Of a stretch of 64,000 bases of DNA, positions 46,917 to 54,197 are shown in pieces. The position numbers were made by a program, and so were the translations under genes. Source of the DNA: Sphingorhabdus sp. SMR4y. GTDB lineage: Bacteria; Pseudomonadota; Alphaproteobacteria; Sphingomonadales; Sphingomonadaceae. Below the pieces are notes generated by a model. It was given only the letters and a program-made list of their open reading frames with translations. It did no database searches and was not told the origin of the DNA. Numbering within the stretch: the first letter of the stretch is position 1; each line of letters starts with the position of its first letter. The stretch covers positions 868,001 to 932,000 of the forward strand of contig NZ_CP022336.1 of assembly GCF_002218195.1 (NCBI RefSeq), in the 5' to 3' direction.

Positions 46917-46946
46917 AAAAAGGGGGCCCGAGAGCCCCCTTTTTTA
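46917..46946. terminator. bidirectional terminator between the PuuD-like gene and pspF
   Basis: AAAAA, GGGGGC, a six-base loop, GCCCCC, then TTTTTT. A- and T-runs flank both sides. The TAA stop of pspF overlaps the end of the T-run. Confidence 0.92.
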
Positions 46947-47990
46947 TGTCCCCAGAAGGTCGTGGCGCTTCAACGAATGGCGCAACTGGTCATAGGTCAG
47001 ATTGAGCGCCTTGGCGGTCTGCCGCTGGTTATAGCGAGATCTGGCGAGCGCGGCCTCCAATATCCGTTTCTCGAAAGCCTCGACCGCCGCCTTCATGTCG
47101 TCGACCCCGTCGAAGGCCAGATCTGTGGCAGCGGTTTCGGCCTGCGCCGGCACTGCTTCCGTCATTGGCTCCGCGGCCGGTTCGCTTTTTGGCGCGGTTT
47201 GCATTTCCCGGGGCTTCCATGGCGATTCAAACGGATCGAACACGACATGGTCAACCGGACTGCAGTGGTCATTCCACTGGTAGACGGCGCGTTCGATCAC
47301 ATTGCGCAATTCGCGGACATTCCCGGGCCATTCGTGCCGGTTTAGCGCCTCCAACGCGAGACGCCCGAAGCCCGGCCAGGACGGCCATTCCAGTTCGGCG
47401 GCCATCCGGCGGCCGAAATAGTCGGCCAGCACTGGAATATCGCCCTCCCGAACGCGGAGCGGTGGCAAGGTGACGACCTCGAACGACAAACGGTCGAGAA
47501 GATCGGCCCTGAATGTGTTTTCCTCCGCCATTTTTGGCAGATTGGCATTGGTCGCGGCGACGATGCGGACATCGACCCGCTGCGGCCGTGACGATCCGAT
47601 CCGCGTGATTTCGCCATATTCCACCGCGCGCAACAACCGTTCCTGCGCGCCGGTGGACAGGGTCCCCAGTTCATCGAGAAAAAGGGTACCGCCGTCGGCC
47701 TCTTCAAATCGCCCGACCCGCGCCTTGGTCGCGCCGGTGAAGGCACCCGCTTCATGGCCGAACAGCTCCGCTTCAATCAGCGTTTCCGGCATCGCGGCGC
47801 AATTGAGCGTTACAAACGGCCCGTCCCATCGCATGCTGAGCCGGTGCAGACGCTCTGCAATCAGTTCCTTGCCGGTCCCGCGCTCACCGACCACCAGCAC
47901 CGGCCGGTCGAGCGGCGCCGCCCGGCTGGCTTTTTCCACGGCGTCGAGAAAAGCACCCGATTCGCCGACAAATTGACCTTCTCTTTCCAT
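46944..47990 (-). CDS. pspF: phage-shock operon activator PspF
   Basis: Sigma-54 enhancer-binding AAA+ activator of 348 residues without receiver domain. Walker A is VVGERGTGKELIAERLH, the sigma-54 contact loop is GAFTGATKA, Walker B is GGTLFLDELGTL, and a Fis-type helix-turn-helix is at the end (YNQRQTAKALNLTYDQLRHSLKRH). It is held inactive by PspA in E. coli. About 45 residues (MKAAVEAFEKRILEAALA region) precede the HTH and a Pro/Glu/Ala-rich linker is present. The ATG at 47990 is used instead of one 36 bases upstream. It is divergent from the psp genes. Confidence 0.94.
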   Translation of the reverse strand: MEREGQFVGESGAFLDAVEKASRAAPLDRPVLVVGERGTGKELIAERLHRLSMRWDGPFVTLNCAAMPETLIEAELFGHEAGAFTGATKARVGRFEEADGGTLFLDELGTLSTGAQERLLRAVEYGEITRIGSSRPQRVDVRIVAATNANLPKMAEENTFRADLLDRLSFEVVTLPPLRVREGDIPVLADYFGRRMAAELEWPSWPGFGRLALEALNRHEWPGNVRELRNVIERAVYQWNDHCSPVDHVVFDPFESPWKPREMQTAPKSEPAAEPMTEAVPAQAETAATDLAFDGVDDMKAAVEAFEKRILEAALARSRYNQRQTAKALNLTYDQLRHSLKRHDLLGT

Positions 47991-48000
47991 GGCCAAGATA

Positions 48001-48018
48001 TAGTGGAAAATCCCACTA
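48001..48018. promoter_or_regulatory. candidate PspF binding site (UAS)
   Basis: TAGTGG (48001-48006) and CCACTA (48013-48018) form a perfect inverted repeat with a six-base spacer. In E. coli PspF binds TAGTGTAAT-type sites 80-130 bases upstream of the pspA promoter. Here the site lies about 75-92 bases before the -24 element and just upstream of pspF, as expected for an autorepressing activator. Confidence 0.6.
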
Positions 48019-48090
48019 AATAGCAATTAATACTATGCACGCAGCCTGGAGAAAATAATTTTATCCTTTTATATCAGAGCTTTATGTAAG

Positions 48091-48107
48091 TTGGCACGGC
48101 TTCTGCA
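48091..48107 (+). promoter_or_regulatory. sigma-54 promoter of the psp operon
   Basis: TTGGCACGGCTTCTGCA matches the sigma-54 consensus TGGCACG-N4-TTGCA apart from C for T. The -24 GG is at 48093-48094 and the -12 GC at 48105-48106, exactly 12 bases apart. A start of transcription near 48118 would leave a leader of about 30 bases before the first gene. Confidence 0.88.
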
Positions 48108-48148: not shown

Positions 48149-48325
48149 ATGCCAGCCCTGAACAAAATCAGCCGCACCGATATTTCCGCGATTATCTCGA
48201 TCCTGCTTTTCAGCACGATGATCTTGATCAGCGCCGTCGGACCGGCACAGGCCGAAGGCACCATGGTTAAAAACCAGAAAGAGTCCCCCGCTGTCAGCTT
48301 CGTTAACATGGGTTATCGGGCGTGA
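48149..48325 (+). CDS. small secreted protein, first gene of the psp operon
   Basis: 58 residues starting MPALNKISRTDISAIISILL and continuing FSTMILISAVGPAQA, a signal peptide with likely cleavage after AQA. The mature peptide of about 22 residues starts EGTMVKNQKESPAVSFVNMGYRA. GGAGA lies five bases before the ATG and a sigma-54 promoter about 40 bases upstream. I do not recognise a family. The position suggests a stress-induced periplasmic peptide. Confidence 0.65.
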   Translation: MPALNKISRTDISAIISILLFSTMILISAVGPAQAEGTMVKNQKESPAVSFVNMGYRA

Positions 48326-48474: not shown

Positions 48475-49149
48475 ATGGCAGGTATTTTTTCTAGAACGCG
48501 CGACATTATCGCCGCCAACGTCACAGACATGCTGGACAAGGCCGAAGACCCGTCGAAAATGATCCGGATGATCATCCTCGAGATGGAAGAAACCCTGGTC
48601 GAAGTTCGCGCCTCTGCCGCGCGCACCATTGCCGACCAGAAGGAAATGCGCCGTCATATCGACAAGCTCGACCATCTGACCGAGGACTGGAGCGAGAAAG
48701 CCCAGCTCGCGCTGTCGAAGGATCGCGAGGATCTGGCCAAGGCAGCCCTCGTCGAAAAGCGCAAGGCCGCCGACATGGCCGACCAGCTGAAAGCCGAAAT
48801 CCAGACTCTCGACGACGCGCTTCGGTCATCCGAAGGTGACATTGCCAAATTGCAGAAGAAGCTGCAGGAAGCCCGCTCGCGCCAGAGCAGCCTGGTAAAC
48901 CGGCTGGAAAGCGCAGAAAACCGCGTGAAGCTTCGCGAAATGTATAATGGCGAAAAGGTCCACGATGCCTTCTCCCGTTTCGAATATCTCGAACGCCAGG
49001 TTGATTTTGCCGAAGGCCGCGCAGACGCGCTTGGCATGGGTGGCGAACCACAGAGCCTGGAGAACCAGATCGCTGCGCTCGAATCCAGCGACAAGGTCGA
49101 TGAAGAACTGGAGGCCATGAAGGCAGCCATGAAAAAAGGTGACGCATAA
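48475..49149 (+). CDS. pspA: phage-shock protein PspA
   Basis: Coiled-coil membrane-stress protein of 224 residues, of the IM30/ESCRT-III-like family. It binds damaged inner membrane and restrains PspF. It begins MAGIFSRTRDIIAANVTDML, followed by DKAEDPSKMIRMIILEME and long helices up to about 185 with ARSRQSSLVNRLESAENRVKLREMYN, and ends with a QIAALESSDKVDEELEAMKAAM. ATG 48475 has GGAG at 48464-48467. A longer frame from 48322 would run through the hairpin and is rejected. Confidence 0.96.
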   Translation: MAGIFSRTRDIIAANVTDMLDKAEDPSKMIRMIILEMEETLVEVRASAARTIADQKEMRRHIDKLDHLTEDWSEKAQLALSKDREDLAKAALVEKRKAADMADQLKAEIQTLDDALRSSEGDIAKLQKKLQEARSRQSSLVNRLESAENRVKLREMYNGEKVHDAFSRFEYLERQVDFAEGRADALGMGGEPQSLENQIAALESSDKVDEELEAMKAAMKKGDA

Positions 49150-49457
49150 TGCAGGAAGAACTCATCATCATTCCGATCGTCATGGGGACATTGTTCATCG
49201 GTCTGCCCTGGCTGATATTCCACTATGTGACAAAATGGAAAACCGCCGCAACGATCACCAACGAAGACGAACATTTGCTGGAAGAACTGCATCATATGGC
49301 GCGCCGTCTGGATGACCGGATGGAAACCATCGAACGGATCATGGCAGCGGACAATCCCGACTGGCGGCAATCCGCCCTGCCCGCTTCGAAATCTGACCAG
49401 GCCCCATCGCTCGAAAATTTTGACGAGCTTCTGAAGAAAGAAAGGCACCCATCATGA
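49149..49457 (+). CDS. pspB: phage-shock protein PspB
   Basis: Small inner-membrane protein of 102 residues: helix IIIPIVMGTLFIGLPWLIFHYV, then a cytoplasmic coiled coil LEELHHMARRLDDRMETIERIM. PspB and PspC sense membrane stress and recruit PspA. The ATG overlaps the pspA stop by one base (TAATG). The end SALPASKSDQAPSLENFDELLKKERHPS is longer than in E. coli PspB. The DDRMETIERI heptads match those of the later small proteins. Confidence 0.92.
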   Translation: MQEELIIIPIVMGTLFIGLPWLIFHYVTKWKTAATITNEDEHLLEELHHMARRLDDRMETIERIMAADNPDWRQSALPASKSDQAPSLENFDELLKKERHPS

Positions 49458-49837
49458 GCTCTTCACGCACGAAATTCTATCTCGACAAGCAGCGCGCAAA
49501 ATGGAGTGGTGTCTGTGCCGGGATCGCCGATTATACCGGGATAAATGTTGCTTGGGTCCGACTGGCAGCGATCATTGCCACGGTCACCTTCGCATTCCCG
49601 TGGACCCTCGTGGCTTACTGGGTCGCAGCGAAAATATCCGAGCCAAAACCGGTGGGCATGTATCTGAGCGATCCGGAAGACACGAAATTCTGGCAGGGCG
49701 TGCGCCAGTCACCCCGCCGCACCACCCGCGATATCAAGTCGCGCTTCCGGGAAATCGACCGCAAGCTGGCTGATATGGAGCTCTATTACACGAGCAAGAA
49801 CACGTCGCTGTCCACCGAAATCGAAAATCTGCGCTAG
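49454..49837 (+). CDS. pspC: phage-shock protein PspC
   Basis: 127-residue sensor. The PspC domain (about 1-60) has YLDKQRAKWSGVCAGIADYTGINVAWVRLAAIIATV, one or two helices, then a cytoplasmic coiled coil ending IDRKLADMELYYTSKNTSLSTEIENLR. That end matches the tail motif of the five small proteins downstream. The start overlaps the pspB stop (ATGA). Confidence 0.94.
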   Translation: MSSSRTKFYLDKQRAKWSGVCAGIADYTGINVAWVRLAAIIATVTFAFPWTLVAYWVAAKISEPKPVGMYLSDPEDTKFWQGVRQSPRRTTRDIKSRFREIDRKLADMELYYTSKNTSLSTEIENLR

Positions 49838-49860: not shown

Positions 49861-50160
49861 ATGGATTTTGGCAGCCCGGAATTTGTTATCGCCATCATCG
49901 CCGTCAGCTATGGAGGATGGATCATCAACAACTGGATCAGAGCCAAACATGGCTATGAACTGGAAGATGAATGGGGCGGTAAAAGCAGCAAGACCGGTCC
50001 GGACGAACAGCGGAAAATCGAACTGCTTTCCAACGAAAACGCAGAGCTGGTCGGCAAGATAGACCGTCTTCAGGAACGGCTGCAGGTCCTCGAACGGATC
50101 GCCACCGATCCGGCGAAACGCACGGCTGACGAAATTGAAGCGCTAAGGGAGAAAAACTGA
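49861..50160 (+). CDS. psp-associated single-helix coiled-coil protein 1
   Basis: 99 residues: one helix (FVIAIIAVSYGGWIINNWI), the motif WIRAKHGYELEDEWGG, then a coiled coil with IDRLQERLQVLERIATD and EIEALREKN. It is a close paralogue of the next gene and resembles PspB in layout. GGGAGAAGAAAA precedes the ATG. No named family is recognised; it may form helical oligomers with PspB/PspC or bind PspA. Confidence 0.85.
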   Translation: MDFGSPEFVIAIIAVSYGGWIINNWIRAKHGYELEDEWGGKSSKTGPDEQRKIELLSNENAELVGKIDRLQERLQVLERIATDPAKRTADEIEALREKN

Positions 50161-50489
50161 TGTCCCCGGACAAGGTTGCCATGATCACGGAACTGGCCCC
50201 GATGCTGGCCGTAGGCATTGTCGCTATCTCTGTCGGCTGGGTCGCCACCACCTGGATGCGTGTCAAGAACGGCTATCCACTGGAAAACCAGTGGGGCAAG
50301 TCGGTCTATCCCAAAACCGACCAGGAAGCGGTCGAGCGGGTCAAGTTGCTAACCAACGAAAATGCCGAACTGCGGGCCGAAATCGGCTCGATGAAGGACC
50401 GGCTGGCCAATGTGGAGCGTATCGTCACCGATGACAGCCACCGGCTGACGCAGGAAATCGAGCAATTGCGCGACAAGCGCACGAATTGA
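50160..50489 (+). CDS. psp-associated single-helix coiled-coil protein 2
   Basis: 109 residues: helix LAVGIVAISVGWVATTWM, the motif WMRVKNGYPLENQWGK, a loop with KTDQEAVERVK, then LTNENAELRAEIGSMKDRLANVERIVTDDSHRLTQEIEQLRDKR (in parts). The WxRxKxGYxLExxWG motif is shared with the preceding gene, which marks a recent duplication. The ATG overlaps the previous stop by one base. Confidence 0.85.
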   Translation: MSPDKVAMITELAPMLAVGIVAISVGWVATTWMRVKNGYPLENQWGKSVYPKTDQEAVERVKLLTNENAELRAEIGSMKDRLANVERIVTDDSHRLTQEIEQLRDKRTN

Positions 50490-50502
50490 AGGGACAGGGA
50501 CA

Positions 50503-50757
50503 ATGGAAGGCATAATCGCTCTTTTGATACCATTTGGCGCCTTTGCGGTAGCGGGCTTTGCCATCTGGACCGGCCATCAGCGCAAGATGATCAAGATGCG
50601 GGGCGAGTTTCCCGGGACCAATGACGCGGATGCACAGCGGATGCGGGAAGAGCTTAAATATCTGAAAGACCGCGTTGCGGTTCTGGAACAGATCACGACC
50701 GACGGCCACAGCACGCGGCAGCTGGAAAGCGAGATCGAACAATTGCGCAGCCGCTAA
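50503..50757 (+). CDS. psp-associated single-helix coiled-coil protein 3
   Basis: 84 residues: helix IIALLIPFGAFAVAGFAIW, a basic GHQRKMIKMR, then REELKYLKDRVAVLEQITTDG and LESEIEQLRSR. The tail closely matches gene 4 (EEVRYLKERVAVLEKIATD). It lacks the WG motif of genes 1 and 2. A good GGGACAGGGA lies upstream. Confidence 0.85.
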   Translation: MEGIIALLIPFGAFAVAGFAIWTGHQRKMIKMRGEFPGTNDADAQRMREELKYLKDRVAVLEQITTDGHSTRQLESEIEQLRSR

Positions 50758-50789
50758 CGGAGCCTGCGAAAAGTGGAGGGAAAGTTTAA

Positions 50790-51050
50790 ATGAATCCGTT
50801 TGAAATGGTCGTTGCCATCATCATCGTCATAACGATCGGGAAAGTGCTGAGCACGCGCTATCGGGCACAGAATGGCATTGTCGAAGACCAGCATGGCAAC
50901 GAAATTGCCGCCCAGAGCCAGGACACTGGCCGCCTGCAGGAAGAAGTCAGATATCTCAAGGAGCGCGTGGCCGTGCTCGAGAAAATTGCCACCGATGATC
51001 GCGGTGCCCGGGAACTGGAAAACGAGATCGAGAAATTGCGGGATCGGTGA
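50790..51050 (+). CDS. psp-associated single-helix coiled-coil protein 4
   Basis: 86 residues: helix FEMVVAIIIVITIGKVL, then RYRAQNGIVEDQHGNE, and a coiled coil EEVRYLKERVAVLEKIATDDRG with LENEIEKLRDR. It is most similar to protein 3. The ribosome binding site is GGAGGGAAAG. Confidence 0.85.
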   Translation: MNPFEMVVAIIIVITIGKVLSTRYRAQNGIVEDQHGNEIAAQSQDTGRLQEEVRYLKERVAVLEKIATDDRGARELENEIEKLRDR

Positions 51051-51071
51051 GCCGGTCCGGGAAGTGGAAGG

Positions 51072-51311
51072 ATGAGCATGATGCAAGAACCTGCTTTTTA
51101 TATGATCACTGCGGCGTTTTCGCTAATTGGATTGACGGTCGTGGCGCTGGTCGCCCTGCGCGGCTGGCGTGACTGGATCGCGCTGAAATCCCGCGAGATT
51201 GAGCAGCGGCGCGAGGACAATCCGCCCACCGCGACATCGCGGATCGAGGTCGCGGATCTCAAGGAGCGTATCCGCAAGCTGGAAGCCATTGCCGCAGGCG
51301 TGGAGCTTTAA
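51072..51311 (+). CDS. psp-associated single-helix coiled-coil protein 5
   Basis: 79 residues: helix MITAAFSLIGLTVVALVALRGW, basic RDWIALKSREIEQRR, and a shorter coiled coil VADLKERIRKLEAIAAG. It is the most diverged member and lacks the EIExLR end. Starts at 51072 or 51078 are possible. It is the last gene of the psp-type run. Confidence 0.8.
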   Translation: MSMMQEPAFYMITAAFSLIGLTVVALVALRGWRDWIALKSREIEQRREDNPPTATSRIEVADLKERIRKLEAIAAGVEL

Positions 51312-51505: not shown

Positions 51506-51916
51506 ATGAGCAAAATTGACGATTTAATCGAAGAATATGAATTTCTTGAACCGGATGACCGCTACCGGCTGCTGATCGATCTCGGCAAACAGCTCGATCC
51601 GATGCCGGACGCGCTGAAGACGGATGCGACGCTGGTAAGGGGCTGTTCCGCCTCGGTCTGGGTCTATCCCACGCAACTCGACGACGGACGGCTGCATTTT
51701 CTGGCCGACAGCAATGCAGCGATCACCAAGGGTATTATCGCGCTTGTGCTGGAAACGGTTCAAGATCAGGCGGTGGATGATATCGTCAGCACCGACATCG
51801 CGGCGGTGCTGGAACCGTTTGATCTCAAAAACCAGCTGAGTTCAAACCGGACCCAGGGCATTCCCAATATGATCGCTCTGATCCAGCAGACTGCGGAACG
51901 CCTGCAAAAAGCCTAG
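51506..51916 (+). CDS. sufE: SufE family cysteine desulfurase activator
   Basis: Takes sulfur from SufS for iron-sulfur cluster assembly. The 136-residue protein has the active cysteine Cys47 in LVRGCSASVWVYP, and LSSNRTQGIPNMIALIQQTA is typical of the C-terminus. No suf operon is adjacent. Its stop overlaps the J-protein stop on the opposite strand by four bases. Confidence 0.94.
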   Translation: MSKIDDLIEEYEFLEPDDRYRLLIDLGKQLDPMPDALKTDATLVRGCSASVWVYPTQLDDGRLHFLADSNAAITKGIIALVLETVQDQAVDDIVSTDIAAVLEPFDLKNQLSSNRTQGIPNMIALIQQTAERLQKA

Positions 51917-52449
51917 ACCGGCTTCCATACTCGCCGTTCCTCGGCAATCCGCAGAACGTCGAACGCCGCCTGCGCTGCCTGGAATTTCTTCGCCGCTTCT
52001 TCATCGCCCGGATTGACGTCCGGATGATATTCCTTGGCCATCGAGCGCCACGCTTTTTTAACCGTTTCGAATTCGACATCGGGCGTCAGGTCGAAAATCT
52101 CCAGCGCGGTCATTTCATCGCGCGAACGGCTACCGTCGCCGGACCCCATCCAGCTGTAATGCTTGGCTTCCTGATAGGCATTGGCATCGCGTTGCTCGTC
52201 GGCTTCGCGTTTCTTGCGCTCTTCCTTGTCGAGACCCTCAAAATAATCCCAGCCCCGGTTATATTCAGCCGCATGGGTCTGGCAGAAATACCAGCGTTCC
52301 GGGCTGTTGGGAGATTTTGGTGCAGGGCAATTGCCGGGTTCGTCGCAACCGTGCCGGTCACAAATCTTGACCTGCTGCGTTTCACGGGAGCTTTCATAGC
52401 TTCCCCAGCGGGGGAACCCCCAATTATCGGATCGTTTTGCTTTGGGCAT
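51913..52449 (-). CDS. J-domain protein (C-terminal DnaJ domain)
   Basis: 178 residues; the J domain is at the C-terminus (about 112-178) with the HPD motif in AKEYHPDVNPGDEEAAKKF, so it should stimulate an Hsp70 ATPase. The N-terminal part holds a possible zinc site (CDRHGCDEPGNCPAPKSPNSPERWYFCQTH, in parts) with Cys and His. A partner is not evident. Similar proteins are common in alphaproteobacteria. Together with sufE it may assist cluster assembly, which is only a guess from position. Confidence 0.9.
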   Translation of the reverse strand: MPKAKRSDNWGFPRWGSYESSRETQQVKICDRHGCDEPGNCPAPKSPNSPERWYFCQTHAAEYNRGWDYFEGLDKEERKKREADEQRDANAYQEAKHYSWMGSGDGSRSRDEMTALEIFDLTPDVEFETVKKAWRSMAKEYHPDVNPGDEEAAKKFQAAQAAFDVLRIAEERRVWKPV

Positions 52450-52499: not shown

Positions 52500-54152
52500 C
52501 TAGTCACGAGACAATATATTGGCTGTAGCGCGGACCAGATCGGGTCGCTGCTGAAGTTCCACCTGACTGTTTGCCAGCTTCGCCCAATAACGCGCTTCGC
52601 TGGGCGACTTGGGAACGCCCTGGCCCGAATGATGAAGCTGCGCCCATATTGCTCTTGCCCCGGCATAGCCGCCTCGGGCGGCTAGCGAACAATCCTGGGC
52701 GACCTGATCCGCCCGTCCTTGCTGATAATGCAATTCGCATATCCAGTTATTGCCTTCCACATTACCGTCATCGGCGAGCGCACGCAGCTTTCGCAGGGAT
52801 TCATCCATCTGCTTTCCGTAGACGCCGAGCGCATAGGTTGCATAGGGATGCCCGCGATCCGATGCATCGCTGAACAGCGCAATCGCTCGCTCCTTGTCGA
52901 CAAGGCCGAATTTACCCTCCCACAAGGCAAAACCGAGGTGGGATTGCGCTTTTGCATATCCTTGCGAAGCCGCCAGCAGATATAATTCCAGTGCGCGGCT
53001 TGCCTTTTCAGGCTCGTTTTCCTGGTAATACCAGGCCAGTTCCGTCTGTCCCGCCGGATGTCCCTGCGCCGCAGATTTTTCCAGCCAGACCAGCGCCTGT
53101 TCGAGATCCCTGCGAACGCCGATACCGAGATGATACATGAACCCCAGAAACGATTGCGCCAGCGGGTCTCCCTCTGTCGCCAGCCGGGTGAGATTGGTGA
53201 GACCGAAATCGCCGAGAATCTCGCCCACCAATATGGTTTCGTCCTCAATCGCCAGACGGTCCATTGGGATATTCAGAGGCGACAGGGGTAAGCCCAACGG
53301 CAAGGCCGATGGGCTGCCGGGAGTGGCCGAAGGCCCACCTGGCTGATTGAGATAGAAATCTTCAAACCAGCTACCGTAATGGAAGGGCTGTTGCGGCCCG
53401 AAATCCAGTCCCCTTGTGTTGGAATAGACTTCCCGCGACACGACCTTGAAATAGTCCGACAGCTCGAGGCCGGGAATGGCAAGCTTGCTCGCGATCGCTT
53501 TGGCAAAGGGGCTGGTTGTGGAGTCCACGGGCGCCGCATCGAGCGCGGGCCGCCCTTTGGCGGTAGAGTAAAAGACAGCGCCCTGCTTCATCTCGAGCAA
53601 TCCCATCGGAGATACATCGCCGTCGGGATCATCGCTGCTCACATCCTTCAGGCGGACAACGGGATCCGGGGTCCGGCAGGCATCCATGAAGAACAGGTTG
53701 AACCGCTTCGCCTTCGAGGCTGCTTCCAGCATTTTTTCGAGCGGCAGAAACTCTGTATCCAGTTCATCCCTGGAGGCGAAAGCCGGCGCATCGACCGGCA
53801 CCATGAAATTGCGACCGTTATATTCAAAGCCGTGACCGGCATAATAGACGACGGCGCTTTCGGCGCTGGCTGCCCTGACCGCGAAAGCCTCGGCGGCGCT
53901 GTTCAATTCTGCGATATTCGCGTCACGCACATCGATAATTTCGAACCCTGCCCGGGCAAAGGCGGTGCAGACATGGTCTATGTCATTGACCGCATTCGCC
54001 AGTATCGGCCAGTTGAGACCGTCATAGGCACTGATACCAATGAGCAGCGCGACCCCGCGTTCACCCTGAGCGGCTTCACATTTCGCCGCGGCCGGGTGAT
54101 CGAAACCGAACAGGCCGACGAAGACAAGACAGCTGAGCAGAAATTTTTTCAT
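52500..54152 (-). CDS. exported caspase-like protease with Sel1 repeats
   Basis: 550 residues: signal peptide MKKFLLSCLVFVGLFGFDHP then AAA, a peptidase C14 domain (about 30-265) with the catalytic pair His107 in VVYYAGHGFEYNG and Cys159 in NLFFMDACRTPD, a Pro/Gly-rich linker (about 275-300), and Sel1 repeats (about 330-520; for instance SFLGFMYHLGIGVRRDLEQAL). ATG 54152 starts the signal peptide; a TTG upstream is rejected. Substrate unknown; the repeats suggest a protein partner in the periplasm. Confidence 0.88.
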   Translation of the reverse strand: MKKFLLSCLVFVGLFGFDHPAAAKCEAAQGERGVALLIGISAYDGLNWPILANAVNDIDHVCTAFARAGFEIIDVRDANIAELNSAAEAFAVRAASAESAVVYYAGHGFEYNGRNFMVPVDAPAFASRDELDTEFLPLEKMLEAASKAKRFNLFFMDACRTPDPVVRLKDVSSDDPDGDVSPMGLLEMKQGAVFYSTAKGRPALDAAPVDSTTSPFAKAIASKLAIPGLELSDYFKVVSREVYSNTRGLDFGPQQPFHYGSWFEDFYLNQPGGPSATPGSPSALPLGLPLSPLNIPMDRLAIEDETILVGEILGDFGLTNLTRLATEGDPLAQSFLGFMYHLGIGVRRDLEQALVWLEKSAAQGHPAGQTELAWYYQENEPEKASRALELYLLAASQGYAKAQSHLGFALWEGKFGLVDKERAIALFSDASDRGHPYATYALGVYGKQMDESLRKLRALADDGNVEGNNWICELHYQQGRADQVAQDCSLAARGGYAGARAIWAQLHHSGQGVPKSPSEARYWAKLANSQVELQQRPDLVRATANILSRD

Positions 54153-54197
54153 AGGCCAGTCTACCACTGACCGCTTGCTGTTCAACGATCAAATCAA

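Follow-up and report, generated by a model that had tools for sequence, protein, structure and literature searches.

Small membrane proteins with PspC-like tails follow pspC in Sphingorhabdus and related genomes

Five small genes lie behind pspABC in the genome of Sphingorhabdus sp. SMR4y, and the question they raise is what such an array contributes to the psp operon. Membrane repair by the psp response has been studied extensively; to our knowledge, how PspB and PspC sense the state of the membrane is an open question. We analyzed a stretch of 64,000 nucleotides of this genome (NZ_CP022336.1, positions 868,001 to 932,000, forward strand), hereafter the window, in whose coordinates all features are given. 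The host genome is 3.48 Mb in size, and its nearest named relatives are Parasphingorhabdus and other Sphingomonadaceae.

The sigma-54 activator gene pspF (46944 to 47990, minus strand) is divergent to the psp operon. Its start at 47990 was chosen by the gene caller and is shorter than the ORF from 46944 to 48026, which scored 484.6 bits with TIGR02974 (cut-off, 443.55). On the plus strand, pspA (48475 to 49149, start from the gene caller), pspB (49149 to 49457), and pspC (49454 to 49837) were recognized by TIGR02977 (279 bits; cut-off, 242.95), TIGR02976 (93.6 bits; cut-off, 51.7), and TIGR02978 (118.7 bits; cut-off, 104), respectively. About 380 bp 5' of pspA is a sigma-54-like promoter, TGGCACGGCTTCTGCA (48092 to 48107, plus strand), with one mismatch to TGGCACGN4TTGCW, which we take to be the sigma-54 consensus. 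Such sites are common in the window (nine found at two or fewer mismatches, with 12.5 expected), so the evidence for this promoter is its conservation. Among 31 family loci, counting that of the window, 29 carried a sigma-54-like site with no more than one mismatch 5' of pspA, and the other two had a site with two mismatches; this count covers loci with pspA found by pattern and leaves out two family and 19 other-family loci. Between the sigma-54-like site and pspA, we also observed an ORF of 58 aa that includes a hydrophobic segment resembling a signal sequence (48149 to 48325, plus strand). A pattern for it, RT(D/E).SA..S..LF...I(L/V)(I/V)SAVGP, was found 3' of the sigma-54-like site in 21 of 29 same-genus loci, window included.

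All five ORFs that an earlier sequence-only reading of the window had placed between 49861 and 51311, co-directional with pspABC, were confirmed, and we refer to them as sp1 to sp5. sp1 (type A; 49861 to 50160, plus strand) encodes 99 aa with a membrane segment, the linker WIRAKHGYELEDEWGG, and a PspC-like tail. sp2 (type B; 50160 to 50489, plus strand) encodes 109 aa, for which AlphaFold2 predicted a membrane helix (residues 3 to 37), a loop (38 to 53), and a long helix (54 to 108) with a mean pLDDT of 74.8. sp3 (type D; 50503 to 50757, plus strand; 84 aa) has a head nearest type C and a tail nearest type E. sp4 (type E; 50790 to 51050, plus strand; 86 aa) has an N-terminus, M..FEMVV, similar to that of several homologues from other families. 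The last gene, sp5 (type F; 51072 to 51311, plus strand; 79 aa), encodes a membrane segment and SRIEVADLKERIRKLEAIAAGVEL but no second tail half; judging by where its counterparts in relatives were called to start, its true start is likely near 51078. The junctions had been described as one-base overlaps or short gaps. Short gaps of 13, 32, and 21 bp are present, and the junction of sp1 and sp2 is the sole overlap, of one base, among the four.

Each of the five proteins has a single hydrophobic segment near its N-terminus, followed within 15 residues by two to four K/R and preceded by none or one. This excess predicts a cytoplasmic C-terminus for sp1 to sp5, the topology that had been proposed. 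The end pattern previously seen in four of the proteins, and in part in the fifth, is the tail R....(L/V)E(R/K/Q)IxTD...EIExLR of sp1 to sp4, with about two extra residues after TD in sp3 and sp4. Its R, E, T, D, I, and L are invariant across an alignment of 28 sp1- to sp4-like proteins from the order (hereafter A1). sp5 has the first half of the tail only, and its last 24 residues differ at one position among seven relatives. Purifying selection was evident in 30 of 30 gene comparisons (dN/dS of 0.00 to 0.30) of the window with six of the seven relatives called with the same gene order. By dN/dS and the homology controls described below, sp1 to sp5 are real genes, as opposed to chance coiled coils.

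The array is contiguous with pspABC and lies 3' of the sigma-54-like promoter, and no terminator-like site was found on the plus strand between 47900 and 51600. Across 72 loci, of which 40 were selected via an array match, the first gap between pspC and the array was at most 100 bp in 67, and 268 of the 282 later gaps did not exceed 60 bp. By layout, sp1 to sp5 are in the same operon as pspABC and are probably co-induced with it. The gene directly 3' of sp5 is presumably sufE. Downstream of the array, on the minus strand, are genes which, from their ORF translations, we take to encode a probable J-domain protein (51913 to 52449) and a probable caspase-like protein with Sel1-type repeats (52500 to 54185).

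Neither Pfam nor NCBIfam has a model that any of sp1 to sp5 matches over its cut-off. By single sequence, sp2 matched TIGR02978 with an E value of 4e-5, below the cut-off, over model positions 39 to 121 of 121, a stretch that corresponds by position approximately to the E. coli fragment PspC40-119. With TIGR02976, sp1, sp2, and sp4 scored 13.8, 9.7, and 12.9 bits (cut-off, 51.7); sp4 scored 12.1 bits with PF06667 (cut-off, 25.6), sp3 scored 13 bits with NF006993 (cut-off, 90), and sp5 had no NCBIfam match. When the A1 members were searched against the 18950 NCBIfam models at an E value of 0.1 or less, PspC was matched by 20 of 28, PspB by 15 of 28, and the best non-Psp model by three of 28. 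In Pfam, PspB (9/28) had a small lead over the TolA-binding coiled coil (7/28) and bZIP (6/28).

Profile comparison of A1 gave P values of 1.7e-6 for the PspC tail (39 columns), 2.3e-7 for PspB (31 columns), and 8e-7 for sp5 (41 columns). The homologous part of the window's PspC is approximately residues 91 to 127 (49724 to 49834). In controlled runs, which were near-global alignments with settings unlike those behind the P values, A1 scored 36.4 with PspC, 36.8 with PspB, and 33.3 with sp5. Among 60 heptad-block shuffles of each profile, the top scores were 16.5, 25.0, and 18.2, respectively; 60 column shuffles peaked at 7.0, 12.3, and 7.9, and reversal of the profiles gave 8.2, 6.4, and 3.5. 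The likeness to the PspC tail and PspB noticed earlier thus goes beyond a generic coiled coil, and chance coiled coils or unrelated neighbors are ruled out by the NCBIfam ranking together with these controls. Compared directly, the PspC and PspB profiles were only weakly similar, which places sp1 to sp4 between them; sp5 and PspB were also weakly similar. The AlphaFold2 model of PspC had a mean pLDDT of 61, too low for a comparison of its tail with sp2.

sp1 to sp4 therefore resemble the C-terminal part of PspC (TIGR02978; about residues 40 to 119 in E. coli) in having one membrane segment, a helical tail, and a place in the same operon. They differ from PspC in falling below the curated cut-off, in occurring as several paralogues, and in lacking the N-terminal PspC domain PF04024, for which sp1 to sp5 gave no match at an E value of 1 or less. 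They share with PspB (TIGR02976, PF06667) a small size, the operon, and the predicted layout of an N-terminal membrane helix followed by a cytoplasmic coiled coil with R....ER(I), a layout found in all five. Unlike PspB, sp1 to sp5 lack the HYxTxxK motif, invariant after the membrane helix in 20 PspB proteins, and the C-terminal P.W, and proteins of the sp1 to sp4 kind end in a PspC-type tail, E..T(S/D)....L..EI..L, which is incomplete in sp5. The array represents a protein class missed by the curated models used.

Distribution of the array was analyzed in the family, the order, and the class. A PspC over the cut-off was encoded by 33 of 36 family genomes, window's included, and in all of the other 32 with full PspC, two to seven array genes lay behind pspC; this set leaves out the same-genus genomes G002, G018, and G029, which have no full PspC. 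These gene counts are lower bounds, since the pattern missed genes seen by a codon-based caller, for example at L036 and L038. A1 matched 235 of 249 family genomes (91 genera, each genome at least 90% complete), with a weakest best E value of 1.2e-10, and PspC matched 238, of which 231 were over the cut-off. The two occurred together in 235 genomes, PspC only in three, the array only in none, and neither in 11 (Fisher P 8e-17, uncorrected for kinship or linkage). The co-loss is in part due to linkage, and same-genus genomes are non-independent. In G100 (L230), which has PspC without an array, a sufE-like gene lies directly 3' of pspC. The 32/32 and 235/249 figures bear out the expectation that the array is conserved in related genomes; they are the frequency evidence, as the 40/40 and 62/62 loci that carry an array were preselected by array match.

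Outside the family, the array-type genes were fewer. In the order sample, A1 matched 57 of 57 family genomes with two to eight genes each and 47 of 61 others with one to three, part of the latter being weak and PspB-like. Whole-genome A1 scans of 15 other-family genomes, chosen from those with an A1 match, yielded 20 strong matches (E value of 3.5e-13 or less; one copy in 10 genomes, two in five) and 10 weak ones, five of which lay directly upstream of a located pspC, the position of PspB. In nine of the nine with a located pspC, a copy was found elsewhere, either over 300 kb distant or on a different contig, and two of these nine had a further copy behind pspC. By pattern, two of 19 other-family loci of the order (L072 and L080) had one copy behind pspC; there, a gene for a second, short PspC-like protein separated pspC from the single array-type gene. 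Pattern matches at three other-family loci (L066, L077, and L079) were 950 to 3564 bp from pspC, looked unrelated, and were not counted, nor were L082 to L084, which are other PspC-domain genes. In the class search, 16 of 241 genomes matched. Four of these belong to the same family as the window; the matches outside it comprised a strong one (G481) and 11 at E values of 5e-7 to 8e-4.

A tree of 221 array proteins and nine other-family relatives indicated how the paralogues arose. It was built on few columns, and 121 of its 227 inner branches are open. For 205 of the 221 proteins, the nearest relative belonged to the same type, and for one of 221 it came from the same locus; the type labels come from our own patterns, so the first figure is partly circular and the second is not. 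Array paralogues therefore appear to be old, their nearest relatives being found by type, across genera, and rarely at the same locus. Recent tandem duplication as the main history is ruled out by this tree, and the duplicated, interchangeable subunits envisaged by the sequence-only reading gave way to copies that, being old and distinct in type, look specialised. The array may derive from PspB, from PspC, or from the stand-alone gene found elsewhere in the order.

The modular build suggested earlier was borne out at sp3, which looks like a recombined head and tail. All 29 type D proteins (sp3 and the like) have a head closest to type C, and 28 have a tail closest to type E; only L059, which comes from another genus, does not. 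Type D is defined by a head motif, which makes the head match partly circular; the tail match is not. From these comparisons, sp3 is a probable chimera of a type C head on a type E tail, which suggests that heads and tails of array proteins recombine. Proteins with mixed nearest types exist singly beyond type D, and as type E is loosely delimited, we claim a chimera for sp3 alone. In comparisons within the genus, the region that precedes the tail showed 1.7 to 9 times the amino-acid change of the C-terminal part, with synonymous change similar in the two; exchange of N-termini between alleles is suggested by these few pairs. In type B, the linker is conserved too.

What might such proteins do? 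We infer PspA binding and, by a modest preference over the alternatives, read sp1 to sp4 as membrane-anchored PspA-docking tails with diversified membrane inputs. In this view, they would be separate copies of the PspC output tail, fixed to the membrane. An N-terminal membrane helix would act in each as input or anchor, followed by a cytoplasmic linker specific to the type and a helical tail that hardly varies. This tail would dock PspA, as reported for that of E. coli PspC. The trigger could be membrane stress or simply operon induction by PspF and sigma-54; sp1 to sp4 would then keep PspA membrane-bound, free PspF from inhibition by it, and bring PspA to the sites where it repairs the membrane. 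The old, separately conserved types would tune the copies to different membrane state, site, or partner. The types would presumably give PspA separate stress inputs, and the stress system of the family may have not one sensor or anchor but several. sp5, in which the second tail half is missing, is more likely a co-assembling coiled-coil partner than a PspA receptor. We put forward tentatively a more specific version, a modular receptor array in which a constant PspA-docking tail with recombined membrane heads would feed species-specific membrane-state inputs into one PspA/PspF switch.

The docking reading leans on E. coli. In the accessible text of PMC3068692, PspC40-119, which consists of one membrane segment and the tail, interacts with PspA and, when overexpressed, induces psp without PspB; a leucine-zipper mutation in the tail abolishes the PspA interaction. 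Given the match of sp2 to the corresponding part of the PspC model, sp1 to sp4 would be natural proteins of the PspC40-119 layout. Counting against docking, the sp tails are predicted to be cytoplasmic, whereas the working topology in the same source has the E. coli PspC tail periplasmic or switching. It further reports that PspC fragments at low level gave no pIV-induced signaling, and its Table 1, as flattened in that text, carries a '-' for PspC40-119 with PspA in two cells, despite the interaction stated in the text for the C-terminal fusions.

Co-induction, probable by layout, would suit passive anchors or effectors that recruit or scaffold PspA or lipids after induction, with no sensing or PspF control. 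LiaI of B. subtilis, as described in the accessible part of PMC9239133, is a precedent: like the sp proteins it is small and in the membrane, and it anchors the PspA homologue LiaH. This likeness is by description; LiaI, unlike them, is a single gene under another regulatory system. Several similar anchors would also give multivalency. We hold this reading to be rather unlikely, as the types are old and kept separately, the conserved type B linker suggests individual roles, and the tail is like that of PspC, a regulator in E. coli (PMC3068692).

Less likely again is a hetero-oligomeric membrane scaffold, in which sp proteins, PspB, and PspC would associate through coiled coils and tune PspBC without contacting PspA. 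The alignment of sp tails with PspB, the fact that the coiled-coil half is all that sp5 has in common with sp1 to sp4, and the self-association of E. coli PspB and its binding to PspC (PMC3068692) would fit it. However, the same report places the PspB-PspC contact in the membrane region and finds the PspB zipper dispensable, and in array proteins it is the membrane heads that vary and the tails that are constant. That sp1 to sp5 are unrelated small coiled-coil membrane genes merely located behind pspC is highly improbable. Single sequences do fall below every curated cut-off, and there are weak matches to other coiled-coil models. Against this, the profile scores beat all controls, PspC and PspB rank top among the 18950 families, PspB itself emerges as a weak match in the whole-genome A1 scans, and the array is lost together with PspC; the ranking, the controls, and the co-loss contradict such a reading. 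We return to membrane-anchored docking tails as the preferred account.

The sequence-only reading knew of no described function for such an array. None is given in the sources searched, and extra genes of this sort are in print: the accessible text of Ravi et al. 2024 (PMC11237479) notes that psp operons can contain 'PspB duplicates', with AOL22920.1 as an example, and a divergent C-terminal PspB fused to PspC. These duplicates resemble the array in being extra PspB-like genes in a psp operon and differ in that this text gives no array, types, head/tail modularity, or function. Compared by description, they may be the same kind of array. A family-wide array, its types, co-loss with PspC, or head/tail modularity was not met in the literature searched, which did not extend to supplementary tables and most subscription papers; nor was an array-related remark found in the accessible parts of PMC3495753, PMC8645129, PMC9239133, and PMC3068692. 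The array as such is therefore new to that literature, and extra PspB-like psp genes are not.

Zymomonas offers a reduced case. At locus L229, the six primers published for pspA, pspB, and pspC of ZM4 were all present with zero mismatches, and a single array-type gene lies 33 bp behind pspC. PMC3495753, as far as accessible, reports higher pspA, pspB, and pspC transcripts in Z. mobilis under ethanol. If the tails dock PspA, their multiplication with different membrane heads, set beside the single copy in Zymomonas, would be a natural experiment on head sensing. At L227 to L229 (Zymomonas or alike), an ORF of 170 to 174 aa with a signal-like start was observed just before pspA. In the accessible part of PMC8645129, ZMO1062, whose number precedes that of pspA (ZMO1063) in Z. 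mobilis, is upregulated with pspABC; that the ORF is ZMO1062 is a guess. The idea that the 58-aa ORF of the window is its counterpart was dropped, given the 170- to 174-aa length of the ORF before pspA in Zymomonas.

A few family loci depart from the usual layout. At L037 (G008; also L226), the first frame behind pspC starts inside an sp1-like gene and its end resembles the tail of type C, while a tblastn search with sp1 covered residues 1 to 96; the contig is a short one from a metagenome, and its array may be truncated or frameshifted. L033, L036, L038, and L040 have gaps of 137 to 323 bp in the array region. Those at L036 and L038 contain an ORF found by the codon-based caller and missed by the pattern, and that at L033 contains a short one.
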